From contig CALWWW010000017.1 in assembly GCA_944385365.1 (NCBI GenBank), forward strand, positions 1 through 52,363: 52,363 bases of DNA, given 5' to 3'. Position 1 is the first letter of the stretch, and the number at the start of each line of letters is the position of its first letter. The position numbers were made by a program, and so were the translations under genes. The notes beneath the pieces were generated by a model. It was not told the DNA's origin. It was given only the letters and a program-made list of their open reading frames with translations, and made no database searches. Shown here one piece after another: positions 15,480-48,762 of the stretch. Source of the DNA: an uncultured Oscillospiraceae bacterium (GTDB lineage: Bacteria > Bacillota > Clostridia > Oscillospirales > Oscillospiraceae).

Positions 15480-15519
15480 CACACGGAACTGCTCAAAAAG
15501 ACATGATGTATTGACAGCA

Positions 15520-15560
15520 CCCCTGTCCCGCGCCTATGCGGGACAGGGGATTGATTTTTT
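15520..15560 (+). terminator. Intrinsic terminator of the PTS operon
   Basis: CCCCTGTCCCGC and GCGGGACAGGGG form a perfect 12-bp stem with loop GCCTAT, followed after four bases by seven T. Confidence 0.93.
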
Positions 15561-15614
15561 TCTGAAAAGATTTGTGCCGTTGTCATATTCTGAACGGTCG
15601 TTGCGGAATGTGTA

Positions 15615-15643
15615 TTGTAAATTGTGCCCAGTCATGATACAAT
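15615..15643 (+). promoter_or_regulatory. Sigma-A promoter of moaC operon
   Basis: TTGTAA (15615-15620), a 17-bp spacer and TACAAT (15638-15643) precede moaC by 56 bp. Confidence 0.75.
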
Positions 15644-15658
15644 CATGCTATCATCCAT

Positions 15659-15679
15659 GGTGCATCGTTCCGATGCACC
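15659..15679 (+). promoter_or_regulatory. Perfect 9-bp inverted repeat in the moaC leader
   Basis: GGTGCATCG, TTC, CGATGCACC form a perfect inverted repeat about 10-15 bp after the predicted transcription start and 10 bp before the ribosome site. It may be an operator just after the start site or a leader hairpin. It does not look like the molybdenum cofactor riboswitch, which is much larger. Confidence 0.5.
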
Positions 15680-15699
15680 GCTGTGCAGGAGGACGACCC

Positions 15700-16179
15700 A
15701 TGGACAAACCATTCAATCACTTCGACGCCGACGGCAACGCCGTTATGGTGGACGTTTCGGAAAAATCCCCCACGGTCCGGGTGGCCGTGGCCGAGGGCAC
15801 CATCCGTCTGACGCCGCCCATTCTGGCCGCCATCACCGGCCGTACCGCCGCCAAGGGCGATGTGCTGGGCGTGGCACAGGTGGCCGGTATTATGGCCACC
15901 AAGCGCACCGGCGATCTGATTCCCCTGTGCCATCCCATGATGCTGAGCCATTCCGCCATCGAGTTTACGATTCTGGAGGAGGAATGCGCCGTCCGCGCCA
16001 CCTGCACCGTCAAGCTGACGGGCAAAACCGGCGTGGAAATGGAAGCCCTCACCGGTGTTTCCGTCGCCCTGCTGACCATTTATGATATGTGCAAGGCGCT
16101 GGACAAGGGCATGGAGATCACGGACATCCATCTGGTCCACAAGGAGGGCGGCAAGTCCGGCTCCTACGACCGGGCTTGA
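15700..16179 (+). CDS. moaC: Cyclic pyranopterin monophosphate synthase
   Basis: This 159-residue enzyme completes, after MoaA, the conversion of GTP to cyclic pyranopterin monophosphate in molybdenum/tungsten cofactor synthesis. Family blocks are FNHFDADGNAVMVDVSEK, AGIMATKRTGDLIPLCHPM (active-site region), KTGVEMEALTGVSVALLTIY and DMCKALDKGM, ending in the KEGGKSG motif. Full length. The ATG has AGGAGG 7 bp upstream. First gene of moaC-moaA-MOSC-mogA. Confidence 0.97.
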   Translation: MDKPFNHFDADGNAVMVDVSEKSPTVRVAVAEGTIRLTPPILAAITGRTAAKGDVLGVAQVAGIMATKRTGDLIPLCHPMMLSHSAIEFTILEEECAVRATCTVKLTGKTGVEMEALTGVSVALLTIYDMCKALDKGMEITDIHLVHKEGGKSGSYDRA

Positions 16180-16193
16180 ACAGGAGGGCCGCC

Positions 16194-17168
16194 ATGCTGG
16201 ACCAATTTCAGCGGAACATCCACTATCTGCGAATTTCCGTTACGGACCGCTGCAACCTCCGGTGCGTCTACTGTATGCCGGAGTCGGGCGTGGAGTGTCT
16301 CCCCCACAGCGCCATTCTCACCTATGAACAAATCGCCCGGCTGGTGGAGCAGTTTGCCGCCCTGGGCGTCACCCATATTCGTCTCACCGGCGGCGAACCC
16401 CTGGTGCGGCCCCAGCTTTACAAGCTGGTGGCAGCCATCCGAGCCGTCCCCGGCATCGAAAGAATCACCCTGACCACCAACGGCGTCCTGTTGGCCCAGC
16501 AGCTGCCCCAGCTGCTGGAAGCCGGTATCGACGGCGTCAACATCAGTCTTGACACCTTGGACCGGCAGCAATTTGCCGCCATCACCCGGCGGGACCTGCT
16601 GTTGGAAACCCTCTCGGGCCTGGAAGTGGCCCTGGGCGTTCCCGGCCTGACGGTGAAGGTCAACTGTGTCCCCACCGAAACCAACCGGGACCAGTTGGTG
16701 CCGCTGGCCGCTCTGGCCAGGGACCGGGATTTGTCGGTGCGCTTCATTGAAATGATGCCCATTGGCCTGGGCCGCAATCTGGGCCGTCTGACCCAGGAGG
16801 AAGTGCTGGCCCAGCTGACCGACGCCTTCGGCGCGCCTCTGGACTGTCCCCCACCCCCCGGCGCGGGTCCCAGCACCTACCGGACGTTCCCCGGCTTTAC
16901 GGGCCGGGTGGGCTTTATCAGCGCCGTGAGCCATCAGTTCTGCCACAACTGCAACCGGGTCCGGCTGACGGCCACCGGCTATTTAAAAACGTGTCTGCAA
17001 TACGAGACGGGCCGGGATTTGAAGGCCCTGCTGGACGGCGGCGCGTCGGACGACGAGCTGCGCCGGGTCATCTCGGAGACCATCCGGCAGAAACCGGCCA
17101 GCCACCACTTTTCCACCGCCGCCCAGTCCGGCGACGAGGCCATGAACATGCATCAAATAGGAGGATGA
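16194..17168 (+). CDS. moaA: GTP 3',8-cyclase (radical SAM)
   Basis: This 324-residue radical SAM enzyme performs the first step of pyranopterin synthesis on GTP. The N-terminal cluster motif is CNLRCVYC (about residue 20), followed by RLTGGEPLVR. The C-terminal second cluster has CHNCNRVRLTATGYLKTCL, and the chain ends in the conserved Gly-Gly (HQIGG) that reaches into the active site. Start ATG after AGGAGGG. It follows moaC by 14 bp and precedes the MOSC gene by 4 bp. Confidence 0.97.
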   Translation: MLDQFQRNIHYLRISVTDRCNLRCVYCMPESGVECLPHSAILTYEQIARLVEQFAALGVTHIRLTGGEPLVRPQLYKLVAAIRAVPGIERITLTTNGVLLAQQLPQLLEAGIDGVNISLDTLDRQQFAAITRRDLLLETLSGLEVALGVPGLTVKVNCVPTETNRDQLVPLAALARDRDLSVRFIEMMPIGLGRNLGRLTQEEVLAQLTDAFGAPLDCPPPPGAGPSTYRTFPGFTGRVGFISAVSHQFCHNCNRVRLTATGYLKTCLQYETGRDLKALLDGGASDDELRRVISETIRQKPASHHFSTAAQSGDEAMNMHQIGG

Positions 17169-17172
17169 TACC

Positions 17173-17610
17173 ATGGGCAATGTGATTGCAGTCTGCATCA
17201 GTGAGAAAAAAGGCGTTCAGAAGAAAAATGTGGGCAGCGCCCGGTTCATCGAGGACTGGGGCATCGAAAACGACGCCCACGCCGGAAAATGGCACCGTCA
17301 GGTGTCCCTGCTGTCCCATGACCGGGTGGAGGAATTCCGGGCACGGGGCGCCGTGGTGGAGGACGGAGCCTTTGGTGAAAATCTGGTGGTCTCCGGCTTT
17401 GATTTCAAGAATCTGCCCGTGGGCACCAAATTCCGCTGCAACGATGTGCTGTTGGAAATGACCCAGATCGGCAAACAATGTCACGCCCACTGTGAGATTT
17501 ACAAGGTCATGGGCGACTGCATCATGCCCCGGGAGGGCGTCTTTGCCCGGGTGCTCCACGGCGGCACCATCTCCGTCGGCGACACCCTTTCCATTGTAGA
17601 GGAGGAATAA
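17173..17610 (+). CDS. MOSC domain-containing protein
   Basis: This 145-residue protein is a stand-alone MOSC domain, a beta fold found in Moco sulfurases and YiiM-type proteins. Visible blocks are WGIENDAHAGKWHRQVSLLS, GAFGENLVVSGFD and TQIGKQCHAHCEIYKVMGDC, with the conserved Cys in KQCHAHC and the late EGVFARVLHGG. It is presumed to bind or carry sulfur or cofactor for Mo/W enzymes. The position inside the cofactor operon supports this, but the reaction is not known. Confidence 0.88.
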   Translation: MGNVIAVCISEKKGVQKKNVGSARFIEDWGIENDAHAGKWHRQVSLLSHDRVEEFRARGAVVEDGAFGENLVVSGFDFKNLPVGTKFRCNDVLLEMTQIGKQCHAHCEIYKVMGDCIMPREGVFARVLHGGTISVGDTLSIVEEE

Positions 17611-17613
17611 ACC

Positions 17614-18102
17614 ATGCGCGTTGCAATTCTCACCCTCAGCGATTCCGGCTACACCGGCCAGCGGGAGGATAAAAGCGGTCCCGTCATCCGGCAGATGGTG
17701 GAGGCCGCCGGTTACACCGTGGTCCACACGGAACTGCTGCCCGACGGCATTGACCCCCTGCGGGGCGTCCTCTCCACCCTCTGCGACGAGGACGTATGTG
17801 ATCTGATTCTCACCACCGGCGGGACCGGCTTCTCCCCCAGCGACGTGACCCCCGAGGCCACCATGGCTGTGGTGGAGCGTCCCGCCCCCGGCATCGCCGA
17901 GGCCATGCGGTACCACTCCCTGCAAATCACCCCCCGTGCCATGCTGTCCCGGGCCGCCGCCGGTATCCGCAAAGGCACTCTGATTGTCAATCTGCCCGGC
18001 AGCCCCAAGGCCGTCACGGAATGTCTGGAGTACATTCTCCCCTCTCTGGCCCACGGCCTGGAAGTGCTCCGGGGCATGACCGGCAACTGCGCCCGGACGT
18101 AA
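17614..18102 (+). CDS. mogA: Molybdopterin adenylyltransferase (MogA/MoaB family)
   Basis: This 162-residue protein activates molybdopterin by adenylylation before metal insertion. Family blocks are AILTLSDSGYTGQREDKSG, LILTTGGTGFSPSDVTPEAT (the TTGGTG nucleotide loop and the Asp used in adenylylation), PGIAEAMR, LSRAAAGIRKGTLIVNLPGS and PKAVTECLEY. MogA and MoaB cannot be told apart safely by length. The job is the same. It is last in the moaC operon and followed by a 30-bp palindrome. Confidence 0.92.
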   Translation: MRVAILTLSDSGYTGQREDKSGPVIRQMVEAAGYTVVHTELLPDGIDPLRGVLSTLCDEDVCDLILTTGGTGFSPSDVTPEATMAVVERPAPGIAEAMRYHSLQITPRAMLSRAAAGIRKGTLIVNLPGSPKAVTECLEYILPSLAHGLEVLRGMTGNCART

Positions 18103-18112
18103 TCCGCAGAAA

Positions 18113-18142
18113 TCCGAAGACGGCGGGCCCGCCGTCTTCGGA
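18113..18142. terminator. Perfect 30-bp palindrome after mogA
   Basis: TCCGAAGACGGCGGG is followed directly by its full complement. The T-tract after it is weak (ACTTGCCTTT) and contains the -35 box of the next promoter, so it may act as partial terminator or as a protein site at the tup promoter. Confidence 0.55.
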
Positions 18143-18143
18143 C

Positions 18144-18172
18144 TTGCCTTTCCCATTGGGATATGGTATACT
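18144..18172 (+). promoter_or_regulatory. Sigma-A promoter of the tup operon
   Basis: TTGCCT (18144-18149), a 17-bp spacer and TATACT (18167-18172). The -35 box directly abuts the 30-bp palindrome. Confidence 0.75.
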
Positions 18173-18227
18173 GTTGTTGCAAGCCCGATACTTTCGGGTC
18201 ATAATGTAAACTAAAAGTGGGTGGACG

Positions 18228-18289
18228 AGCCCCTTTTCCAGGTTCTGATCGACACAAGACGGAAGTTGGAGGGGCTTGTTTTATTTTTT
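18228..18289 (+). terminator. Intrinsic terminator/attenuator inside the tup leader
   Basis: AGCCCCT pairs with AGGGGCT, continued by CCA/TGG after a bulge, around a loop of about 30 nt. Then TTGTTTTATTTTTT follows. It lies between the promoter and the tupA start, so it must be overcome for expression. Upstream GGG and CCC runs (18185-18234) could form an alternative pairing. I do not recognise a named riboswitch here. Confidence 0.6.
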
Positions 18290-18315
18290 CCATATTTTAG
18301 GAGGAATCACCCATC

Positions 18316-19392
18316 ATGAAAAAGCTTCTTGCACTGGTGCTGGCCCTGTCCACGGTTCTGGGTCTTCTGGCAGGCTGCGGCGCCAAAGAGAACACCGCCC
18401 AACCCACCACGGAGGACACCGCCAACACCGAGACCAACGACGCTCCGGAAACCACGGACGACACCGCCGGGACCGGCACCGAGGAGACCACCGACGACAG
18501 CAGCGCTGTGGTGGTGGACCTGACCATCCTCAAGGAAGCCGACGAGAGCATGCTCAACACCTATTCCATGATCGCCGTCAACCCCGAAGCACCCTTCACC
18601 GATGCCGACGGCAACGCCGTTTCCGATGTCACCGTCAACACCGCCGGCGCCGACGCCCTGATGCACTGGCTGCTGCTGCCGGAGACGCTGGATCTGGCCG
18701 CCAACTACGGCATGGAAGAGTACGGCAACACCCTGTTCTATGTGCTGGAGGACGCGCCCACCTATGAGGGCGAAATCCCCGCCGCCACCGACGAGACCAA
18801 GACCATCCGCCTGTCCACCACCACCTCCGTCAACGACTCGGGTCTACTGTCCTACCTGCTGCCCCAGTTTGAGGAAGCCTATGGCTACACGGTGGAAGTC
18901 CAGTCTGCCGGTACCGGCAAGGCCATCGAGGCCGCCAAGTTCGGCAATGCCGACCTGATTCTGGTACACTCCAAGAGCCAGGAAGAGGAGTTTGTCAACG
19001 CCGGTTTTGCCCGCGTCATCGACGGCATGGAGACCGAGCGTGTGTCTTTCCTCTATAACTACTTCGTCCTCTGCGGCCCCTCTGCGGACCCCGCCGGTGT
19101 GAAGGATGCCGCCACGGTGCTGGACGCTTTCGCCGCCATTGCTGAGGGCAAGTATCCCTTCATCTCCCGCGGCGACGGCTCCGGTACCCACACCAAGGAG
19201 CTGTCTCTGTGGCCTGCGGAGCTGGGCATCACCGAGGACCCCGAATCCTTTGCCGATTACACCGACTGGTACACCTCTGCCAACGCCGGTATGGGTGCCT
19301 GCCTGGTCATGGCTGAGGAAATGGGCGGCTACATCCTCACCGATAAGGCCACGTTCCTGACCTTTGTTGCCAACAACGGCGTCATGGAATAA
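18316..19392 (+). CDS. tupA: Tungstate-binding lipoprotein TupA, apparently circularly permuted
   Basis: This 358-residue protein has a lipoprotein signal (LAGC, Cys21) and a Thr/Glu/Asp-rich linker to about residue 64. The part from 161 on starts with the hallmark N-terminus of mature TupA: STTTSVNDSGLLSYLLPQFE, then GTGKAIEAAKFGNADLILVH, FISRGDGSGTHTKE and GYILTDKATFLTF, and stops there. Normal TupA runs on past that point into a block with LLNxYxVIxVNPE and a closing FGxxxYGxxLF. Here that block lies at the N-terminus (66-146: LTILKEADESMLNTYSMIAV, NPEAP, WLLLPETLDLAANYGMEEYG, NTLFYV). Both parts occur once, so this is a permutation, not a duplication. It should capture tungstate outside the membrane for TupBC. 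Confidence 0.85.
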   Translation: MKKLLALVLALSTVLGLLAGCGAKENTAQPTTEDTANTETNDAPETTDDTAGTGTEETTDDSSAVVVDLTILKEADESMLNTYSMIAVNPEAPFTDADGNAVSDVTVNTAGADALMHWLLLPETLDLAANYGMEEYGNTLFYVLEDAPTYEGEIPAATDETKTIRLSTTTSVNDSGLLSYLLPQFEEAYGYTVEVQSAGTGKAIEAAKFGNADLILVHSKSQEEEFVNAGFARVIDGMETERVSFLYNYFVLCGPSADPAGVKDAATVLDAFAAIAEGKYPFISRGDGSGTHTKELSLWPAELGITEDPESFADYTDWYTSANAGMGACLVMAEEMGGYILTDKATFLTFVANNGVME

Positions 19393-19471
19393 GCAGGCAA
19401 ATTACAGAAAAGCTCACCGTTGGGTTGCTGTATTCACAGCACCCCAATTTGGTATGGAAAGGGGAATGTCT

Positions 19472-20158
19472 ATGGGCTCCGCTGTGGAGCAGGCCGTACA
19501 GCTGATCGCCTCCGGCGACCGGGAACTGCTGAATATTTTGTCCGTCACAGCCCGCATGAGCCTGTCCAGTTCCCTCATTGCCCTGCTGCTGGGGGTTCCT
19601 CTGGGGCTGCTGCTGGGGGCCTGCCGGTTTCCGGGCCGTGGGCTGCTGCTGGTGTTGAACCGGACCCTTATGGGTGTGCCGCCGGTGGTCTGCGGTCTGA
19701 TCTTCTATATTCTGTTCTCCGGCGTGGGTCCGCTGCGCCATCTTCATTTATTGTTCACCGTGGAAATCATGATTCTGGCCCAGGTGGTGCTGATCACGCC
19801 CCTGCTCACCAGCCATATGGAGACGTATGCGGCCCAGATTGCCGGTCCCGTCCGGGAGACGGCCAAGGGACTGGGGCTGTCCCGGTGGAAAACCTTTCTG
19901 CTGCTGCTCAATGAGAGCCGCTATCCCATCTTTTCCGGGTATCTGCTGGGCTTCTCCCGTGCCATTGCCGAGGTGGGCGCAGTGTCCATGGTGGGCGGCG
20001 CCATTGCCTGGAAAACCAACGTCATGACCACAGCCATTATGCAATACACCAACCGGGGCAATTTTTCGCTTGGCATCGCGCTGGGGTTGATTCTTCTGGT
20101 GCTGTCCCTGGGGATGAACTTGGCTCTGTCCCTGCTGCAAAGGAAGGTGGCGTCATGA
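19472..20158 (+). CDS. tupB: Tungstate ABC transporter permease TupB
   Basis: This 228-residue inner-membrane permease of the ModB/TupB type has about five or six membrane segments. It starts with the family's ILSVTARMSLSSSLIALLLG and carries the EAA-like coupling loop ETAKGLGLSRWKTFLLLLNE, then RAIAEVGAVSMVGGAIAWKT. The ATG at 19472 is preferred (AAGGGG at 7 bp) over one 6 bp upstream. It follows tupA by 79 bp and overlaps tupC by 4 bp. Confidence 0.92.
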   Translation: MGSAVEQAVQLIASGDRELLNILSVTARMSLSSSLIALLLGVPLGLLLGACRFPGRGLLLVLNRTLMGVPPVVCGLIFYILFSGVGPLRHLHLLFTVEIMILAQVVLITPLLTSHMETYAAQIAGPVRETAKGLGLSRWKTFLLLLNESRYPIFSGYLLGFSRAIAEVGAVSMVGGAIAWKTNVMTTAIMQYTNRGNFSLGIALGLILLVLSLGMNLALSLLQRKVAS

Positions 20159-20811
20159 ACCTTTATGCCTTTGCCAAGTCCTTCGGGGGACAAGCGGCGG
20201 TTACCGTACCGGACCTGACGCTGGAAGCCGGAACACTGTACGCCGTCATCGGGGCCAACGGCAGCGGGAAATCTACCTTTTCCCGTGTGATTGCCGGAGT
20301 CCTCTCCCCTGACGGCCGCCGTCCGGTGACGGAAGCGGGGCTGCGGGTGGGGTATCTGCCCCAGAAGAGCTACGGATACCGGCTGAGCGTCCTGCAAAAT
20401 CTGCTGCTGGCCAGCCGGGACCGGGACCAGGCCGCCCGGCTGCTGGAAGCGGTGCAGCTGTCCCATCTGGCCGGGAAACCGGCACACCGCCTGTCCGGCG
20501 GCGAGACGGCCCGCATGGCATTGGCCCGGCTGTTCATGGGGCAGTATGATCTGGTCATTCTGGATGAACCCACGGCTTCCATGGATATGGAGAGCACCAT
20601 GCTCACAGAGCAGTTGACCCGGCAATATGTGGCTGAAACGGGCTGCGCTCTGCTGCTGGTCACCCACAGTCTCCAGCAGGCCCGGCGGCTGGCCGATAAA
20701 GCGCTGTACTTCCATAAGGGGCAGCTGCTGGAACAGGGTCCCGCCAAAACGGTTCTATACGAACCACAACACCCTGAAACCCGGCAATTTCTCTCATTTT
20801 ACGGCTCATAA
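20155..20811 (+). CDS. tupC: Tungstate ABC transporter ATP-binding protein TupC
   Basis: This 218-residue ATPase has Walker A GANGSGKST, the Q-loop block VGYLPQKSYGYRLSV, ABC signature HRLSGGETARMALAR, Walker B YDLVILDEPTASMD and switch His in LLVTHSLQQA. It is short for an ABC ATPase with no regulatory C-terminal domain, as usual in TupC. It drives tungstate import with TupA and TupB. The stop codon merges with the first bases of a hairpin repeat copy. Confidence 0.92.
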   Translation: MNLYAFAKSFGGQAAVTVPDLTLEAGTLYAVIGANGSGKSTFSRVIAGVLSPDGRRPVTEAGLRVGYLPQKSYGYRLSVLQNLLLASRDRDQAARLLEAVQLSHLAGKPAHRLSGGETARMALARLFMGQYDLVILDEPTASMDMESTMLTEQLTRQYVAETGCALLLVTHSLQQARRLADKALYFHKGQLLEQGPAKTVLYEPQHPETRQFLSFYGS

Positions 20812-21302: not shown

Positions 21303-23207
21303 TTACAGTTCCCGCACCGTGCCGGGATTGTTTACCGTATAGCCGCCCAGGGCTTCCAGACGGGCGCGGAAGGTGTCGCTGCGGAGCACCTCCAGCAGCT
21401 TCTGCACCATGGGGGTATCCCACGCGCTGTCGGGAATCAGCAGATCATACTGTTCTGTACAAATGGGCAGAAATTCCAGGCCGTACAGCTGAGCCGCGGA
21501 CCAGATGCCCATACCGGCGTCGCCGCTGCCGTTGGCAATCTGCGCTGCTACCGCCGTATGGGTGAATTCCTCCCGGTCATAGCCATAGATGGCCTTGCCG
21601 TCTACGTGCTCCTGCTTGCACAGGTAGTCGAAGAGAATCCGGGTGCCGCTTCCCTTCTGGCGGTTCACATAGGAGATGCCCTCTTGGGCCAGATCGGCAA
21701 ATTTTTCAATCCCCTTGGGATTGCCTGCAGCCAGCATCAATCCCTGGGTCCGGCCCACGCACTCCACCAGACGGACGCCGCCGTTGGGGAAGTATTTGCG
21801 GATAAACGCCGTATTGTAAGAGCCGTCCTTTTCATCCAGCAGGTGGACGCCGCCCATATGGGCTTCGCCCCTGCGGATGGCCATGATGCCGCCCATGGAG
21901 CCCACATGGGACGAGCTGAGATAGAACTGGCCGTCCAGACGGAACAGGTCCGCCAATTCATCCATGAGGGGGTCGTGGCTGCCGATGACCACCAGGGTTT
22001 TCTGGAGTTCCGCCTTGGGGCGCAGCAGCTGGACGGTGACCGTCTGGCCATTCTCGTATCCCTCTGTTCCCTGGGGCACCTCCAGAATGCCGTCAGCCTT
22101 CATAAAGGAGGTGACGACGCCGCTGCCGCGGCTCAGGGGCGACGCCATGAGCTTATCGCCCACATAGCCCAGCCGGACGCGGATAAACTCCCGATACTTG
22201 AGACCCGACACCACAGGGCGGGACAGAACGGCCTCCGCCGTCTCCACCTGAGCATGGGTGCGGCCCGTCAGATGCTCCACCAGAGGCTGCAACAGCTCCC
22301 GAATGACCAGGATACCCGACACAGGATAGCCGGGCACGCCCAGAATGGGCACAGGGCCTTTGCAGCCGAGAATGGCGGGCTTGCCGGGTTTGATGGCGAT
22401 ACCGTGACACAGGACCTCGCCCACCTCGGAAATGGCCTGACAGCTGTAATCCTCCCGGCCCGCCGAGGAACCGGCGTTCAGGAGCACCATATCACACTCC
22501 TCCGCCGCCTGGGCCACTCTTGCCCGGATATCGTCCAGGTTATCCCGTGTAATGGGGTACGTTTTCGGCACCGCGCCCCACTCCTGCACCATGGCGGAAA
22601 AGATGGTGGAATTGAACTCCATAATCTGGCCGGGAGCCGGGTCCGTGGTGGGCGGAATGATCTCGTCGCCGGTGGGCAGAATGCCCACCACCGGGCGGCG
22701 GTACACGGGAATCTCCAGGACGCCGCCGGCCAGCAGTGCGCCCATGGCCGCCGGGGTCACGGCGGTACGGGACGGCAGGAGCATCTCTCCGGCGCAGACA
22801 TCCTCGCCGATCTGGCGGATATGCTGCCAGGGAGCCGCTGGGGCATAGAGCCGGGCGGAACCGTCTTCCTCGTAGACCACGTCCTCCACCATAATGACGG
22901 CGTCGCAGCCCTCGGGGATGGGGTCGCCCGTATCCAACACCTTAAACTGGGACGGCGGCAGCACCACCGGCGTGGTCTCCGTGGCGCCGAAGGTGTCGGC
23001 AGCCCGGACGGCAATACCGTCCATGGCGCTGGCATGGTAATGTGGGGCGCAGATATGGGCGTAAACGGCCCGGGACGTGATGCGGCCCAACGCCTCGCCC
23101 ACGGGAATGGTCTCCTCCGCGGGAGCAAAACCGTGGTCCAGCAGCGTCGTTAAGTACAGGGTTTTTGCCTCGTCTAAGGGCATGTTTTGCAGGAACTGAA
23201 ATGCCAT
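21303..23207 (-). CDS. MoeA fused to a PBP-like domain (molybdopterin biosynthesis protein)
   Basis: This 634-residue fusion has a MoeA part (about 1-408) with PHYHASAMDGIAVRAADTFG, VLDTGDPIPEGCDAVIMVED, GILPTGDEI, LNAGSSAGREDYS, GIAIKPGKPAILG and GVPGYPVSG. It should insert molybdate or tungstate into adenylylated molybdopterin. The C-terminal part (about 412-634) is a periplasmic-binding-protein-like domain without signal peptide (VIGSHDPLMDELADLFR, GLMLAAGNPKGIEKFADLAQ, FVNRQKGSGTR-like block YVNRQKGSGTR, LEFLPICTEQYDLLIP). This domain probably senses the oxyanion or cofactor inside the cell. Start ATG has GGAG about 9 bp upstream. Last gene of regulator-moeA-moeA/PBP. Confidence 0.9.
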   Translation of the reverse strand: MAFQFLQNMPLDEAKTLYLTTLLDHGFAPAEETIPVGEALGRITSRAVYAHICAPHYHASAMDGIAVRAADTFGATETTPVVLPPSQFKVLDTGDPIPEGCDAVIMVEDVVYEEDGSARLYAPAAPWQHIRQIGEDVCAGEMLLPSRTAVTPAAMGALLAGGVLEIPVYRRPVVGILPTGDEIIPPTTDPAPGQIMEFNSTIFSAMVQEWGAVPKTYPITRDNLDDIRARVAQAAEECDMVLLNAGSSAGREDYSCQAISEVGEVLCHGIAIKPGKPAILGCKGPVPILGVPGYPVSGILVIRELLQPLVEHLTGRTHAQVETAEAVLSRPVVSGLKYREFIRVRLGYVGDKLMASPLSRGSGVVTSFMKADGILEVPQGTEGYENGQTVTVQLLRPKAELQKTLVVIGSHDPLMDELADLFRLDGQFYLSSSHVGSMGGIMAIRRGEAHMGGVHLLDEKDGSYNTAFIRKYFPNGGVRLVECVGRTQGLMLAAGNPKGIEKFADLAQEGISYVNRQKGSGTRILFDYLCKQEHVDGKAIYGYDREEFTHTAVAAQIANGSGDAGMGIWSAAQLYGLEFLPICTEQYDLLIPDSAWDTPMVQKLLEVLRSDTFRARLEALGGYTVNNPGTVREL

Positions 23208-23229
23208 GGGTGTGATTCTCCTTCTCGTT

Positions 23230-24450
23230 TCATTCCATATGATACACGGTGACGGCGACGGTGCTGCCCTGGGGCAATCCCTCGCAGTCCCGTGGGATTT
23301 CAAAATAGCCGTCAGACCCGGCCAGGGTGCTGATGAGGCCCGATTTGCTGCGGATGGGCTGGGCATACAGTACGCCGTCCCGCTCCGTCAGATGGACGCC
23401 GGTGTACTGGGCACGGCCATGGTTGGCCGAGACGGTCTCCGTCAGAACGGCAGGCACCGGACGGCGCACCAGGGTGCGGCCCTGCATCCGGGCCAGCAGG
23501 GGTTTCAAAAACAGATTGGCCACAAAAAACGCCGCGCCGGGATGGCCCGGCAAGCCCATAACCGGCTTGCCCTCCACGACGCCCAGAATGGTGGGTTTGC
23601 CGGGCTTCATGGCAATGCCATGGAACAGCAGCTTGCCCAGCCGGTCAATGACGCGGCAGGTGGCGTCCTTTTCCCCCACGGAACTGCCGCCGGAAATGAG
23701 CACACAGTCGCACTGTGCCAGCGCCCTGCGCACCGTCTCTTCCAGCAGCGGTTCCTCATCCCGCAGCGCCCCCATGGGGATAGCCTCGCCGCCGAAGGAG
23801 GTCACCGCCGCCGCCAGCAGGGCCGAATTGACGTCCCGGACCTGCCCAAGCCCCGGCTGTTCCGTCACGTCTACCAACTCGTCGCCGGTGCTGATGACGG
23901 CCACCCTGGGCCGCCGGGCCACGGTCACCTGGGCCCGGCCCAGAGCCGCCAACGCGCCGATATCGGCGGCGGTCAGAATGCGGCCCGCCTGCAATACCAC
24001 CTTGCCGGGCCGCACGTCGTCGCCCCGGTACACCAGATTGCTGCCGGGGGCGGCGGGCTTCATAACGCCGATGGTGCCGTCGCCGTAGTCCTCCGTATAT
24101 TCGATCATCACCACGGCGTCGGCCCCCTGGGGCAGCGCGCCGCCGGTGGGCACGGCCACGCAGGTGTTTTCCTCCACGGTACCCTCCGCCGCTTGTCCCA
24201 TCAGAACCGAACCGGTGACCGTCAGAATGGCCGGAATGCTGTCGCTGCATCCAAAGGTGTCGGCCCCGCGGACCGCGTAGCCGTCCACCGTGGACCGGTC
24301 AAAATCCGGTACAAACTCCGCCGCCGTCACCGTCTCGGCCAGCACCCGGCCCAGGGCCGCGGGCAGGGGCACCGATTCCGGCTCCCCCACTGTAAACGCC
24401 GATTCCGCAATCAGCGACAGGACCTCCTCCGGTGTCTTCACCGTCAACAT
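23230..24450 (-). CDS. moeA: Molybdopterin molybdenumtransferase MoeA
   Basis: This 406-residue full-length MoeA has FVPDFDRSTVDGYAVRGADT, VPTGGALPQGADAVVMIEYT, VISTGDELVD, LISGGSSVGEKDATCRVID, GIAMKPGKPTILGVVEGK and GLPGHPGAAFF. It joins Mo or W to the adenylylated pyranopterin. With the MoeA-PBP fusion next to it, the organism has two MoeA proteins, possibly one per metal, as proposed for other tungsten users. It starts 3 bp after the regulator stop with GGAGG upstream, so it is translationally coupled. Confidence 0.94.
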   Translation of the reverse strand: MLTVKTPEEVLSLIAESAFTVGEPESVPLPAALGRVLAETVTAAEFVPDFDRSTVDGYAVRGADTFGCSDSIPAILTVTGSVLMGQAAEGTVEENTCVAVPTGGALPQGADAVVMIEYTEDYGDGTIGVMKPAAPGSNLVYRGDDVRPGKVVLQAGRILTAADIGALAALGRAQVTVARRPRVAVISTGDELVDVTEQPGLGQVRDVNSALLAAAVTSFGGEAIPMGALRDEEPLLEETVRRALAQCDCVLISGGSSVGEKDATCRVIDRLGKLLFHGIAMKPGKPTILGVVEGKPVMGLPGHPGAAFFVANLFLKPLLARMQGRTLVRRPVPAVLTETVSANHGRAQYTGVHLTERDGVLYAQPIRSKSGLISTLAGSDGYFEIPRDCEGLPQGSTVAVTVYHME

Positions 24451-24453
24451 GTG

Positions 24454-25392
24454 TCAAACCTCCTCCAGGATTTCCCCCATCTGGGTGTAATCGTTGCCGC
24501 TGAACTGCTCCAGCTCCCGGCGAAAGGCCGGGTCCCGCAGAACGGCCAGCAGCGTTTGTACCTCTGGCTGCTCCAGAGAATCCTTGCGCAAAACCAGATC
24601 ACAGCGCTCCTGCTGCATGGGAATAAAGTCCAGTCCCGCCTGCTTGCGGGTGACCCGTTCGGTACCCACGCCCACGTCGGCCTTGCCCTGGGCAATGGCC
24701 CCGGCCAGCGTCAGATGGGAGCCGGTCTCCTGGTCATAACCCCGGACCGATGACGGCGCGATGCCCAGCCGCCGCAGATGCTCGTCCAGCAGCACCCGGG
24801 ACGCGGACCCGCAGCCCCGGTTGAGCATGCACACGTCCGCCCGGCACAAATCCTCCCAGCCGGTGATCTGCTTAGGGTTGCCTGCGGCCACATAAAAGCC
24901 CTGCATCCGCCGGGACACATTGACCAGCACCGCCCCCACGCCGGGCATGAGCCGCCGGACATAGGGACTGTTGTACCGGTCCACATCCCCGGCCCACAGA
25001 TGGACCATAGCCGCATGGATCCGCTTCTGATAGAGGGCCAGCAGTCCCTCAAAGCCGCTGAGATACGCCCGCAGCGCCGCCACATTCTTCTGCTGCATGC
25101 GGCTGGACAGCAAATCCAGCACCACGTCCTGGCCCGCAATGATAAAATGGTGGTCCCAATCGGCACGGGTGATGAGACCGCCCTCCAGTTCGGCGGTCTT
25201 GACCTTGGGGGCCGAACGCTCATGGCGGGACCGGGCAATATACTGGTCCACATCCTCCTTGGTGAAGCGCACCTTGCGCCCCACCCGGTAGGAGTTGATT
25301 TCCCCCCGGCGAATCAGTTCATAGACGGTGTTGCAGCTCACATGGAGCATCGCCGCCACCTGCTGGGTGGACAGGGCCTTTTGGTCGGGCAT
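24454..25392 (-). CDS. HTH regulator with PBP-like sensor domain
   Basis: This 312-residue cytosolic protein starts with an excisionase-type helix-turn-helix (about 5-55, LSTQQVAAMLHVSCNTVYEL, INSYRVGRKVRFTKEDVDQY). It continues with a PBP-like domain (about 85-312; GFYVAAGNPKQITGWEDLC, MLNRGCGSASRVLLDEHL, GLDFIPMQQERCDLVLRK) of the same kind as that fused to MoeA. No signal peptide. It probably reads intracellular molybdate/tungstate or cofactor and controls this region, in the role ModE has in Proteobacteria. It is divergent from the AOR gene and heads the moeA operon. ATG after GAGGGGG. Confidence 0.85.
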   Translation of the reverse strand: MPDQKALSTQQVAAMLHVSCNTVYELIRRGEINSYRVGRKVRFTKEDVDQYIARSRHERSAPKVKTAELEGGLITRADWDHHFIIAGQDVVLDLLSSRMQQKNVAALRAYLSGFEGLLALYQKRIHAAMVHLWAGDVDRYNSPYVRRLMPGVGAVLVNVSRRMQGFYVAAGNPKQITGWEDLCRADVCMLNRGCGSASRVLLDEHLRRLGIAPSSVRGYDQETGSHLTLAGAIAQGKADVGVGTERVTRKQAGLDFIPMQQERCDLVLRKDSLEQPEVQTLLAVLRDPAFRRELEQFSGNDYTQMGEILEEV

Positions 25393-25427
25393 AGCTCCCC
25401 CTCCTCTTTTACATAGCAGTTGACACA

Positions 25428-25457
25428 AGTATAACCCATTTCACACAATGTTGGCAA
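25428..25457 (-). promoter_or_regulatory. Promoter of the regulator-moeA operon
   Basis: The minus strand has TTGCCA (25452-25457), an 18-bp spacer and TATACT (25428-25433), 36 bp before the regulator start. It is back to back with the AOR promoter. Confidence 0.65.
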
Positions 25458-25485
25458 GGGTCCCGTGAAATCTCTTGCGTTTTTA

Positions 25486-25513
25486 TTGTAATTTCCGGAA
25501 TTCCAGCTATGAT
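25486..25513 (+). promoter_or_regulatory. Promoter of the AOR gene
   Basis: TTGTAA (25486-25491), a 16-bp spacer containing the palindrome TTCCGGAATTCC, and TATGAT (25508-25513). The spacer palindrome could be an operator for the divergently encoded regulator, but no second copy is seen in the window. Confidence 0.55.
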
Positions 25514-25561
25514 GAAATCAGGAAGTGTGTAAGGAAACCCATTGTTCAAGGAGGGAATCGT

Positions 25562-27370
25562 ATGAGCCGTTCTTACTATGAGAAACTCGCCCGCATCGAT
25601 TTGACCGCCGGTACGGTGGCCGTGGAACCCCTGGAGCTGGAAAAAGCCCAACGGTACATCGGCGGCCGCGGTTTGGGTACCAAAATCCTCTACGATGAGG
25701 GCGTTGCCACCGTGGACCCCCTGGGTCCCGACAACAAACTGGTGTACATCACCGGCCCCATGACCGGTACGCCGTCGCCGTCCTCGGGCCGCTATATGGT
25801 CTGTACCAAGTCTCCCCTGACGGGCATGATCGCCTGTTCCAACTCCGGCGGCATCTGGGGCGCCAAGCTGAAACATGCCGGTTGGGACGGTCTGATTGTC
25901 GAAGGCGTTGCCAAGGAGTGGACCTATCTGCTGGTGGACGATGGGGAAATTTCGTTCCACAGCGCCGAGCAGTACGTGGGCATGAAGAGCGAGGACATGG
26001 ACGAAGCGCTGCGCAAGGTCCATGGCGAGAAAGCCTCCGTTCTGAACATCGGCCCCGCCGGTGAACACCAGGCACTGCTGGCCGCCATCATCAACGACAA
26101 GGACCGGGCCGCGGGCCGCTCCGGCGTCGGCGCGGTCATGGGCTCCAAGAAGCTCAAGGCCATTGTGGTCAAGGCCAGCGTGGGCCATGTGACCACCCTC
26201 CACGACGAAGACGCCCTGAAGCAGGCCACCAGCCGCTGCCTGGGCATCCTCAAGGAAAACGGCGTCACGGGCCAGGGTCTGCGGGCCTACGGCACCGCCG
26301 TTCTGGTCAACATCATCAACAACATTGGTTCCCTGCCCACCAAGAACTGGCAGGAAGCCTATTTTGAAGCCGCCGAGAAGATTTCCGGTGAAACCATGGC
26401 CGAGACGTGTCTCGTCAAGCCCGGCGCGTGCTTCCGCTGCCCCATCGTCTGCGGCCGTATTGTCAAGCTCAACGACGGCAAGGTCTGCGGCGGCCCCGAA
26501 TATGAACCCCTGTGGGCCTACGGCGCCAACTGCGGCGTGGACGACCTCAACGCCATCAACGTGGCCAATATGCTCTGCAACGAATACGGTCTGGACGCCA
26601 TTTCCACCCCCTGTACCATCGCCGCCGCCATGGAGCTGTATCAGATCGGCGCCATCACCGAGGCGGACTGTGAGGGCGTTCCCCTGACCTGGGGCAGCGC
26701 CGAGGCCATTGTGGAATGGACCCGCCGCATGGGCGCCGGAGAGACCGAGCTGGGCAAGCGGATGGCTCAGGGTTCCTACCGTCTCTGCGAGCACTACGGC
26801 CATCCCGAGGTGTCCATGAGCGTCAAGAAGCAGGAAATGCCCGCCTACGACGCCCGCGGCATTCAGGGCATCGGCATCACCTATGCCACCAGCAACCGCG
26901 GCGGCTGCCATGTCCGGGGCTATATGATCTCCCCCGAAGTCCTGGGCCTGCCCCAGCAGCTGGACCGGACGGTGACCGACGACAAGGCCGCCTGGGCCAA
27001 GACCTTCCAGGACCTGACCGCCGTCATCGACTCCATGGGCAACTGCCTGTTTACCTCCTTTGCCCTGGGGGCCCAGGAGTATGCGGACCTGCTCAACGCC
27101 GCCACCGGCACCAACTACACCGTGGAGACGCTGCTGGAAGCCGGTGAGCGGATTTACAACCTGGAGCGGCTGTTCAACAAGGCCGCCGGTATGAAGCCCG
27201 AGGATGACCGGCTGCCCAAGCGTCTGCTGGAGGACCCCATCCCCGGCGGTCCCTCCAAGGGTATGACCAGCAAGATCGCGCTGACGCTGCCCCAATACTA
27301 CGAAGCCCGCGGTTGGGTGGACGCCTTCCCCACGGAAGAAACGCTGCGCCGCCTGGGCCTTGCCGAATAA
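25562..27370 (+). CDS. Tungsten-type aldehyde:ferredoxin oxidoreductase
   Basis: This 602-residue enzyme of the AOR family oxidises aldehydes to carboxylic acids, or the reverse, with ferredoxin, using tungsten-bispyranopterin and one 4Fe-4S cluster. Blocks seen are RYIGGRGLGTKILYDE, GPMTGTPSPSSGRYMVCTKS (pterin site), NIGPAGEHQ, DKDRAAGRSGVGAVMGSKKL, the cluster Cys in CFRCPIVCG (about 289-296) with the distal Cys in GNCLF (about 494), and GIGITYATSNRGGCHVRGYM. Length is normal. It lies amid tungstate uptake and cofactor genes, supporting tungsten rather than molybdenum. The natural aldehyde cannot be read from sequence. Confidence 0.94.
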   Translation: MSRSYYEKLARIDLTAGTVAVEPLELEKAQRYIGGRGLGTKILYDEGVATVDPLGPDNKLVYITGPMTGTPSPSSGRYMVCTKSPLTGMIACSNSGGIWGAKLKHAGWDGLIVEGVAKEWTYLLVDDGEISFHSAEQYVGMKSEDMDEALRKVHGEKASVLNIGPAGEHQALLAAIINDKDRAAGRSGVGAVMGSKKLKAIVVKASVGHVTTLHDEDALKQATSRCLGILKENGVTGQGLRAYGTAVLVNIINNIGSLPTKNWQEAYFEAAEKISGETMAETCLVKPGACFRCPIVCGRIVKLNDGKVCGGPEYEPLWAYGANCGVDDLNAINVANMLCNEYGLDAISTPCTIAAAMELYQIGAITEADCEGVPLTWGSAEAIVEWTRRMGAGETELGKRMAQGSYRLCEHYGHPEVSMSVKKQEMPAYDARGIQGIGITYATSNRGGCHVRGYMISPEVLGLPQQLDRTVTDDKAAWAKTFQDLTAVIDSMGNCLFTSFALGAQEYADLLNAATGTNYTVETLLEAGERIYNLERLFNKAAGMKPEDDRLPKRLLEDPIPGGPSKGMTSKIALTLPQYYEARGWVDAFPTEETLRRLGLAE

Positions 27371-27673: not shown

Positions 27674-28348
27674 ATGGAGGAACGCTATCTGCGCAATCTG
27701 GGGCCGCTGACCGAAGCGGAGCAGGCGCTGCTTGCATCCAAAACCGTCTTTCTCGCCGGTTTGGGCGGTCTGGGCGGCCATCTGCTGGAACACATGCTGC
27801 GGCTGGGGGTGGGGGCCATTGTGACCGCCGACGGCGACCGCTTCACCCCCTCCAATCTGAACCGGCAGCTGTTGGCCACGGAGGACGCCATGGGTCAGCC
27901 GAAAGCCCAGGCGGCGGCGGAACGGGCCGCCGCCGTCAATCCCAGTGTCCGGGTCACCGTCGTATCCACACCGCTGACGGCCCGCAACCGGGACGCCCTG
28001 CTGGCCGGGTGCGATCTGGCCCTGGACGGTCTGGACAATCTGGAAGCCCGGCGGATTCTGGCCGCCGGCTGCGACCGGGCCGGTATTCCCCTGGTCCATG
28101 GCGGCATCCGGGACTGGTGCGCCCAGGTGGCGGTGATTCCGCCGGGCAGCGGCCTGCTGGACCGCATTTACCCGCCCCATCTGTCGGAACTCTCCCCCAG
28201 CGGCACCGTCTCGCCGGTACCGGCCTGGTGCGCCGCCGTTCAGGCGGCCCAGGCGCTTTGTCTTCTCTGCGGCCGTCCCGCCCCCCTGTGGGGAAAGCTG
28301 CTGGCGGCAGACCTGCTCTATGGAGAACAGGAAATTCTGCCCCTGTAG
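27674..28348 (+). CDS. ThiF/MoeB/HesA-family adenylyltransferase
   Basis: This 224-residue E1-like enzyme has the nucleotide loop VFLAGLGGLGGHLLEHMLRL, the Asp block VTADGDRFTPSNLNRQLLAT and the later GCDLALDGLDNLEARRILA. It should adenylylate the C-terminal glycine of the MoaD-like protein. The zinc-binding Cys pairs of classical MoeB are not seen (CLLC near the end is only one pair), so it is of the shorter HesA/ThiF class common next to AOR genes. Confidence 0.88.
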   Translation: MEERYLRNLGPLTEAEQALLASKTVFLAGLGGLGGHLLEHMLRLGVGAIVTADGDRFTPSNLNRQLLATEDAMGQPKAQAAAERAAAVNPSVRVTVVSTPLTARNRDALLAGCDLALDGLDNLEARRILAAGCDRAGIPLVHGGIRDWCAQVAVIPPGSGLLDRIYPPHLSELSPSGTVSPVPAWCAAVQAAQALCLLCGRPAPLWGKLLAADLLYGEQEILPL

Positions 28349-36875: not shown

Positions 36876-36950
36876 GGAGCGGGTGACGAGGCTCGAACTC
36901 GCTACCTCCACCTTGGCAAGGTGGCGCTCTACCAGATGAGCTACACCCGC
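36875..36950 (-). tRNA. tRNA-Gly (anticodon GCC), CCA encoded
   Basis: This 76-nt cloverleaf has acceptor GCGGGTG/CACCCGC, D-arm with AGCTCATCTGGTAGAGC, an anticodon stem CACCT/AGGTG with loop TTGCCAA giving anticodon GCC, T-loop GTTCGAG and a genomic CCA. It reads GGC and GGU codons. Confidence 0.96.
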
Positions 36951-48527: not shown

Positions 48528-48706
48528 GTTTGCAGGAAAAAGGACCGCCGTCCTTGCCGAAGGAGCAAAACTCTCAGGCGTTTCCCACTGGAAATGAGGA
48601 CTGCAAACGGATGTGGCTCTGGAGAAGCTCCCCTCCGCGGGAGTGCCGAAGGTGCAACGCGCGGCGGTTTTCCGCCGCGGGAATCTCTCAGGCAAAAGGA
48701 CAGAGT
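48528..48706 (+). promoter_or_regulatory. Tandem glycine riboswitch
   Basis: Two consecutive aptamers carry the glycine signature. The first (48528-48608, closing stem GTTTGCAG/CTGCAAAC) has GCCGAAGGAGCAAAACTCTC followed by AGGCG and ACTGGAAATGAGGA. The second (about 48616-48706, stem CTCTGG/ACAGAG) has GTGCCGAAGGTGCAACGC and GGGAATCTCTCAGGCAAAAG, followed by GACAGAG. A short linker joins them, as in the cooperative form. It controls the AGCS transporter downstream. Confidence 0.93.
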
Positions 48707-48762
48707 TTGGCACAGGGGTTCGCTGCGCAGTTTGGATGCAGCATCGAACCGTTGTCCATCCG

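Follow-up and report, generated by a model that had tools for sequence, protein, structure and literature searches.

The closest described relatives of the protein considered here are the TupA proteins of Desulfovibrio alaskensis G20 (DaG20; PDB 5my5) and Geobacter sulfurreducens (3lr1). According to the available text of PMC5517513, DaG20 TupA consists of lobe A (residues 2-76 and 201-251), a central strand (77-89) and lobe B (91-200), and its ligand site is formed by Thr9-11, Ser12, His59, Arg118, Thr124 and Asp170. A natural circular permutation has been described, in the accessible part of PMC4990184, for Tp0684 (MglB-2) of Treponema pallidum, a glucose-binding protein classed as 'Type Ic'. 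The uptake of tungsten by gut bacteria is itself a current topic (PMC11980592 and PMC13328260, from the portions available). In the stretch of 52,363 nucleotides analysed here (the window), a tupA gene of a gut bacterium encodes what we take, with a probability of roughly 0.9, to be a circularly permuted substrate-binding lipoprotein of a TupABC tungstate importer. The gene and the parts of its product are laid out as follows.

18300-18304, + strand: ribosome binding site GGAGG before tupA, read from the sequence
18316-19392, + strand: permuted tupA, an open reading frame of 358 codons plus stop
18316-18378, + strand: signal peptide and lipobox, residues 1-21 (L-A-G-C21 in the sequence, helix 2-19 in the model)
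18379-18510, + strand: disordered tether, residues 22-65, rich in Thr, Asp and Glu (pLDDT below 50 at 22-62)
18511-18753, + strand: native C-terminal block, now at the front, residues 66-146 (PDB and profile matches)
18754-18795, + strand: new linker from the old C-terminus to the old N-terminus, residues 147-160 (pLDDT block means 96-97)
18796-19389, + strand: native N-terminal part, residues 161-358, holding all eight ligand-site residues

The first-pass annotation had proposed that the native C-terminal block precedes the N-terminal part, and the matches to solved structures bear this out. A sequence search aligned residues 162-350 with residues 5-178 of PDB 3muq_A and residues 67-114 with residues 182-231 of the same chain, and 3lr1, 5my5 and 3kn3 returned the same two pieces, again in an order swapped with respect to the query. 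Within the protein, LNTYSMIAVNPE and NYGMEEYGNTLFYV both lie inside residues 80-143, TTTS occupies residues 168-171 and the chain ends shortly past GYILTDKATFLTF. As the second PDB piece is not significant alone (independent E of 0.22 for 3muq and of 100-260 for 3lr1, 5my5 and 3kn3), it was tested with a profile of 47 native-order TupAs spanning 247 positions, against which all 296 rotations of residues 63-358 were scored. The best match of the encoded order reaches 219.4 bits, with the moved block forming a separate match of 39.9 bits, whereas rotations starting at residue 147 or at residues 150-161 give 266.0 bits in one match over profile positions 2-244. Starts on either side score lower (259.4 bits at 140, 261.9 bits at 165), the optimum of the scan falling on starts in the inter-block linker. 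The rotated chain thus aligns better than the encoded one, and no match in native order spans the chain. The same gain, of 39.2-56.0 bits, is seen upon rotation in 125 out of 125 permuted open reading frames (counting near-copies, but neither L126 nor its copy L197), their mean profile coverage rising from 175 to 243 positions, while the 47 native TupAs lose 93 bits on average, and each at least 44, when permuted likewise.

General family profiles see only part of the permuted chain as encoded. The NCBIfam TupA profile (NF041772, 266 positions) gives 130.2 bits in two stretches, residues 161-354 corresponding to profile positions 14-193, and 139.6 bits in a single stretch over positions 16-223 once the chain is rotated; Pfam PBP_like_2 scores 102.2 over positions 5-207 in the encoded order and 108.2 over positions 13-253 of 267 in the rotated one. 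Homology to TupA over a whole profile is therefore attained only after rotation. The 130.2 bits fall short of the NF041772 cut-off of 400 bits, which no match in 394 genomes of the order reaches, native-order ones included, so that the cut-off excludes those too; the protein is best called TupA-type rather than an NCBIfam equivalog.

It had further been claimed that each half occurs once, as in a cut-and-rejoin event, and this holds throughout: none of 192 distinct TupA-like open reading frames carries a second copy of either half above threshold (15 bits for the large half, 10 bits for the small one), and duplication is rejected on this count. The search for the same permutation in related genomes was equally productive, with 103 of the 192 being permuted (L126 included), 82 native and seven unclassed. 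It is these relatives that refute a chimeric assembly or frameshift mimicking a permutation, a reading so improbable that it can be set aside: although most of the named sources are metagenome-assembled genomes, the 103 distinct permuted frames come from many assemblies, are free of internal stops and include one, in G078, from a single-contig genome of 4.3 Mb. Assembly error is rejected on the same grounds. The observations support a circular permutation without duplication.

Structure models, built on close relatives (identity of at least 65%) and free of ligand, are in keeping with a single core. AlphaFold gave a pLDDT of 87.1 and a pTM of 0.76 for the whole chain (46 sequences), residues 22-62 falling below 50, and a pLDDT of 92.2 and a pTM of 0.85 for the core of residues 63-358 (59 sequences), with no stretch below 50. 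On these core values a separate N-terminal domain made of residues 66-146, the arrangement that the first-pass annotation had set against its own proposal, is rejected, the model being one fold. The first six solved-structure matches in Foldseek are TupA-type chains, aligned in chain order only, a mode that does not capture the full superposition, over 190-201 columns with TM scores by target of 0.38-0.65; the rmsd to 3muq, 9.4-9.6 in that chain-order alignment, is large, perhaps as a result of lobe opening.

Alignment to 5my5 places the equivalents of the ligand site, as listed in the available text of PMC5517513, at T168-170, S171, H218, R285, T291 and D343. All eight published residues are kept, every one of them in the unmoved part, and across 102 permuted proteins, the divergent L126 not counted, the only departure is a single T168S. 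DaG20 Tyr201 corresponds to Y83, and the central strand to residues 243-255, for which the model predicts a strand at 242-255. By the lobe limits given in the same text, residues 66-82 form the end of lobe B and residues 83-146 a part of lobe A, the cut falling between DaG20 residues 180 and 187, within lobe B. The native order of lobes, A-B-A with both ends in lobe A, has become B-A-B with both ends in lobe B, although the chain crosses between the lobes twice in either form. With the ends relocated in this way, it is lobe B that carries the lipid tether. The first-pass annotation had a Thr/Asp-rich linker joining the moved block to the lipidated Cys21 through the former C-terminal lobe; the linker is found, but what it attaches to is the short lobe B segment, residues 83-146 being lobe A.

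An alignment of 102 permuted proteins shows no gap in the new linker; A157 is invariant, while P148, I154, T158 and likewise T161 are nearly so. The moved block is about 11 residues longer in permuted TupA than in its native relatives, and a segment within it around FTDADGN (residues 93-104, window 18592-18627) is conserved among the permuted relatives. The tether varies in length. It measures a median of 35 residues after the Cys in 98 permuted open reading frames, near-copies included, and ranges from 6 to 99 residues, the divergent L126, set aside, having one. Cys21 is the expected lipidation site in the window's protein. A simple motif rule finds no lipobox in 11 of 101 untruncated permuted frames (L062, L063, L065, L069, L090, L092, L099, L109, L111, L112 and L114), the signal peptide looking ordinary; the tether is thus not universal, and the products of these 11 may be without a lipid anchor.

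In the arrangement that we propose, the chain is opened in lobe B, after its last helix and before its last strand, and a linker of about 14 residues and fixed length joins the old ends. The event would have passed through a tandem duplication followed by loss of the outer parts, as the usual model has it; no duplication intermediate was seen among the relatives. The two lobes would presumably still shut around tungstate in the manner of a native-order TupA and pass it on to TupB and TupC, so as to supply the tungsten cofactor of the neighbouring aldehyde ferredoxin oxidoreductase.

Permuted forms prevail in the family of the window's host. Within this family, 42 of 300 genomes match at 1e-20, its own included (33 permuted, eight native and the divergent G041), and the best 80 of 148 confirmed genome-contig relatives are permuted without exception. 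Wider samples gave matches in 47 of 391 genomes of the class, four of them permuted including the window's own, and in 186 of 398 genomes of the phylum, where among the matches listed only the window's own spans both blocks. Plasmid records gave 116 matches, none covering more than 80% of the query, and a plasmid-borne permuted tupA was rejected on that basis. One assembly, G406, carries both orders, with 4% contamination; its native-order frame (L193:1628-2926, the same as L136) has what looks by eye like a LysM-like N-terminal part. Native-order TupA domains were also seen behind a DNA-binding-like domain, again by eye, near tupABC in L170:4242-5378, L171:4786-5883 and L172:4141-5349, and these three proteins could possibly be tungstate-responsive regulators.

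For the more careful of the TupA trees, the halves were aligned in one order for 44 native rows, five long ones having been omitted, and for 35 of the 75 permuted rows other than L126, the remaining 40 and L126 itself being left out. Three native frames whose second half was weak or short (L154, L184 and the second frame of L172) had been removed before any tree was built. Permuted and native forms part in one clean split (100/100), and the nearest natives to the permuted clade, L118 (family f1) and L134 (family f23), are joined to it at 100/98. In a quick tree of 125 rows the permuted label needs two changes, L126 standing apart on an end branch of length 10; the AU test does not reject a placement of L126 among the permuted rows (p-AU 0.76). 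The clean split supports the view that the permutation arose once. The gene of L126 (L197:7108-8064) encodes a divergent permuted TupA-like lipoprotein in which the ligand residues are replaced, with no tupB and none of ten query genes in the fetched stretch around it, and is an orphan that has retained the scaffold and lost the site.

The TupB tree, a quick one with three gappy rows, likewise shows one split between 73 permuted and 65 native rows (SH-aLRT 100). TupB divides as TupA does, and the two genes have therefore remained linked. In 94 of the 96 permuted loci with room for it, TupB comes directly next, the exceptions being the orphan L126 and L128, where the TupB open frame begins upstream of the end of tupA and hence lies outside the distance limit. 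The same narrow test finds TupB next in 34 of 54 native loci; in several of the others TupB or TupC is also nearby, the frames overlapping or the gene order being different.

On this evidence we lean towards a neutral event, in which an accidental permutation would have become fixed a single time in an ancestor and then travelled with the tup cassette. The single split on the TupA tree fits such a history, as does the patchy presence of the permuted form, which occurs in three of six sampled genomes of genus g1, is scattered also in families f17, f27, f52 and f99 and divides genus g40 between G275 (permuted) and G189 (native). Its numerical weight within the family, however, with 34 of the 42 matching genomes permuted (the 33 and the degenerate G041) against eight native, could hint at an advantage. 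The first-pass annotation had suggested that the permutation could alter hinge motion or docking on TupB. An adaptive origin, in which a lipid tether and both chain ends on lobe B change lobe closure or docking on TupB and TupB has co-evolved, is an unlikely alternative that would account for the single TupB clade of the permuted operons and for a new linker fixed in length with conserved residues; a similar proposal on tethering is made by the authors of the Tp0684 study in the accessible text of PMC4990184. Yet inheritance of the genes as a cassette yields the same TupB tree and explains the separate clade as well as adaptation does, a tether of 6-99 residues, with the lipobox absent in some proteins, argues that no precise tether is required, and the ligand residues are unchanged. 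A neutral fixation remains the preferred account of how the permuted form spread. The permutation, apparently of single origin and represented by about a hundred distinct descendants, has close native sisters in L118 and L134 and lends itself to a direct test of what chain topology does in the binding protein of an ABC importer, since near relatives can be set side by side for lobe closure, tether position, docking and folding.

The genes around tupA point to the role of its product. Molybdenum/tungsten cofactor genes lie upstream, and tupB and tupC adjoin it.

15511-18102, + strand: moaC, moaA, a MOSC protein and a mogA/moaB-type gene (Pfam and ORF bounds; starts uncertain)
19454-20158, + strand: tupB, permease (Pfam BPD_transp_1; start codon uncertain)
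20155-20811, + strand: tupC, ATPase (Pfam ABC_tran)
21303-25428, - strand: MoeA-PBP_like fusion, MoeA and HTH_17-PBP_like protein (Pfam)
25475-27370, + strand: aldehyde ferredoxin oxidoreductase (Pfam AFOR_N, AFOR_C)
27674-28348, + strand: ThiF-family protein, MoeB-like (Pfam ThiF)

The aldehyde ferredoxin oxidoreductase is likely the tungsten enzyme served and, going by what is known of the family, the likely role of permuted TupA is to capture tungstate for the cofactor of that enzyme. That the protein instead binds another ligand, such as molybdate or another oxyanion, or none at all, appears improbable. The orphan L126/L197, permuted and without the ligand residues, demonstrates that the scaffold can lose its role, but the window's protein keeps TTTS, H218, R285, T291 and D343, changes at the equivalent of R285 alter tungstate/molybdate binding in DaG20 TupA (PMC5517513, in the text available), and tupB, tupC and the cofactor genes adjoin.

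Downstream of the mogA-type gene, tupA is preceded by a leader whose conserved core is approximately AAAGCGGUGGACGAGCCUCUUUCC. The following elements can be recognized in this leader region.

18144-18172, + strand: promoter-like site TTGCCT-17-TATACT, from a consensus scan only (four such sites in the stretch against 0.6 expected)
18203-18247, + strand: hairpin P1, a candidate antiterminator, with a nearly invariant UGGACGAG loop
18222-18289, + strand: intrinsic terminator of the leader, GGACGAGCCCC pairing with GGGGCUUGUU and followed by a U-run; its 5' arm overlaps P1

The region 18178-18300 folds with a z of -5.2, and a covariance model built from 29 leaders matches 18205-18286 with 42.4 bits; two weak matches in the window, of 17.9 and 14.0 bits, are on the other strand. 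P1 pairs UUUUG, AAAG and GG with CC, CUUU and CAAAA. In its alignment 83.3% of cells are paired and nine of 12 pairs carry double changes, the cells with double changes numbering 79 against 30.3 in shuffled alignments (0/500). When the partners are slid by one column, 69 such cells are kept and 65.1% of cells remain paired, so that part of the count comes from low complexity. When upstream arms are exchanged among 76 leaders, folding becomes weaker, its mean energy going from -9.8 to -7.9 kcal/mol. In the terminator, GGACGAGCC pairs with GGCUCGU and UCCAA with UUGGA, 91.8% of cells being paired; its cells with double changes, eight against 1.9 shuffled (0/500), all belong to the inner helix, variation in the outer helix being confined to the 3' side. 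Across the 29 leaders the 5' arm GACGAGCC is constant and the 3' arm variable, as would be expected of a 5' arm with a second task, either in P1 or in binding some partner.

The mark of an attenuator is a pair of hairpins that exclude each other, one being an intrinsic terminator, and here both hairpins show covariation. On sequence grounds the leader is thus probably a transcription attenuator controlling the operon, and it would respond to tungsten or molybdenum status. It may also be a new kind of RNA. A scan of the window with Rfam 15 at the gathering threshold gave nothing at the leader. Within 18090-18330 the single match at E<=1 was to a microRNA model; it falls on the opposite strand, at 18108-18149, and does not touch the leader. 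Six further leader loci gave none at E<=0.1. The literature listed for tungstate and molybdate riboswitches consisted of the Moco motif, reviews and papers on unrelated subjects. That the core encodes a peptide, V-D-E-P-L-S, is thought unlikely, third codon positions hardly varying. Elsewhere in the window the Rfam scan identified three known RNAs.

1606-1704, - strand: purine riboswitch
36878-36950, - strand: tRNA
48609-48713, + strand: glycine riboswitch

The leader is closely associated with the permuted gene. With up to three errors allowed, its core is found in 72 of 230 loci, at 74 sites that differ in their surroundings. Of these sites, 71 are upstream of permuted tupA and three elsewhere (L069:938, its near-copy L070:938 and L091:648), with none at the native-tupA loci among the 230. 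The covariance model finds 66 sites in 63 of 80 genome-contig loci, of which 21 had fed the model, the remaining 17 being without a match. It finds none in 95 control loci, made up of 89 native-order tupA loci (82 distinct frames), five of unclear order and the orphan L197. Among 49 chosen genomes there are 25 sites in 21, with 19 at permuted tupA and six elsewhere; a match is obtained in 21 of the 34 genomes that carry permuted tupA and is lacking in the other 13, the filters losing weak matches, and the 11 genomes with native tupA only have no match. In a sample of 157 genomes of the class two match, one being the window's own; G748 matches with an E of 3.8e-4. An exact 16-base core pattern has 13 sites, spread over 12 of the 300 family genomes. 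Permuted tupA accounts for 11 of these sites and L244 for another, and the last (G085:C3) is taken as chance, lying as it does within a thymidylate synthase-like open frame; the reversed pattern gave three matches in the 300 genomes. A leader in viral contigs was rejected, an exact 19-base leader pattern having no match there.

Sites of the leader away from tupA are found at the following places.

L069:929-1010 (copy in L070), L091:639-739 and L244:1229-1324 (G213:C37)
L272 (G406:C152), L273 (G406:C49) and L274 (G087:C14)
L275 (G149:C60) and L276 (G213:C48)

By Pfam and reading of the open frames, a FecCD permease is encoded downstream in each of the eight distinct loci, and a Peripla_BP_2 protein in seven; in L276 the FecCD gene is about 3 kb from the leader site, behind one long frame. 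XdhC and FmdE stand beside the leader in L091, and L069 and L273 have DUF364/DUF4213 'heavy-metal chelation' genes, while L272, L275 and L276 have no molybdenum-named or chelation gene among those tested. The first gene behind the leader in both L244 and L274 encodes an Oxidored_molyb protein (L244:1353-4424 and L274:2076-5165), lipoprotein-like and of about 1025 residues, with one Oxidored_molyb domain recognised, ahead of the FecCD importer. In G149 the operon behind the leader includes a frame joining SBP_bac_11 and a methyltransferase domain (L275:272-1936). FecCD importers mostly carry other substrates, and for that reason we only infer that these operons are linked to molybdenum or tungsten. 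FecCD-type molybdate importers exist, MolBC-A being an example (PMC4031551, available text).

Like the Moco RNA motif, which precedes molybdenum/tungsten genes (PMC2408646, accessible part), the tupA leader stands before genes of this kind, from which motif it differs in matching no Rfam family. If it is a true sensor of tungstate, molybdate or their cofactor, it would represent a further class of gene control by metal oxyanions and supply a sensor part. We suggest tentatively, and with less than even confidence, that no circularly permuted binding protein of the ModA/TupA fold was described before permuted TupA and that the leader founds a new class of regulatory RNA, which would sense tungstate, molybdate or their pterin cofactor and switch importers of two unrelated kinds, TupABC and FecCD/Peripla_BP_2. 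In the available main text of the tungsten papers checked no word begins with 'permut', and among natural permuted binding proteins Tp0684 is the sole precedent found in a search largely of papers open without subscription.

With the TupA proteins of DaG20 and G. sulfurreducens the permuted protein shares its ligand residues, its operon partners and, after rotation, homology over the whole profile; it differs from them in the rotated order of its blocks, in having its ends in lobe B rather than lobe A and in the extra linker. Tp0684, as far as the accessible text describes it, is similarly a natural circular permutation of a tethered binding protein of an ABC importer, with relatives in gut Gram-positives. 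In that protein, however, a Type I fold has the first three strands of its N-lobe moved to the end, which creates a fourth hinge crossing, and the ligand is a sugar, whereas permuted TupA has the TupA fold, cut at the end of lobe B, and two crossings. The Type Ic definition, a Type I fold with a fourth hinge crossing, thus does not describe permuted TupA, which provides a second natural case among such binding proteins, in a fold different from that of the only precedent found.
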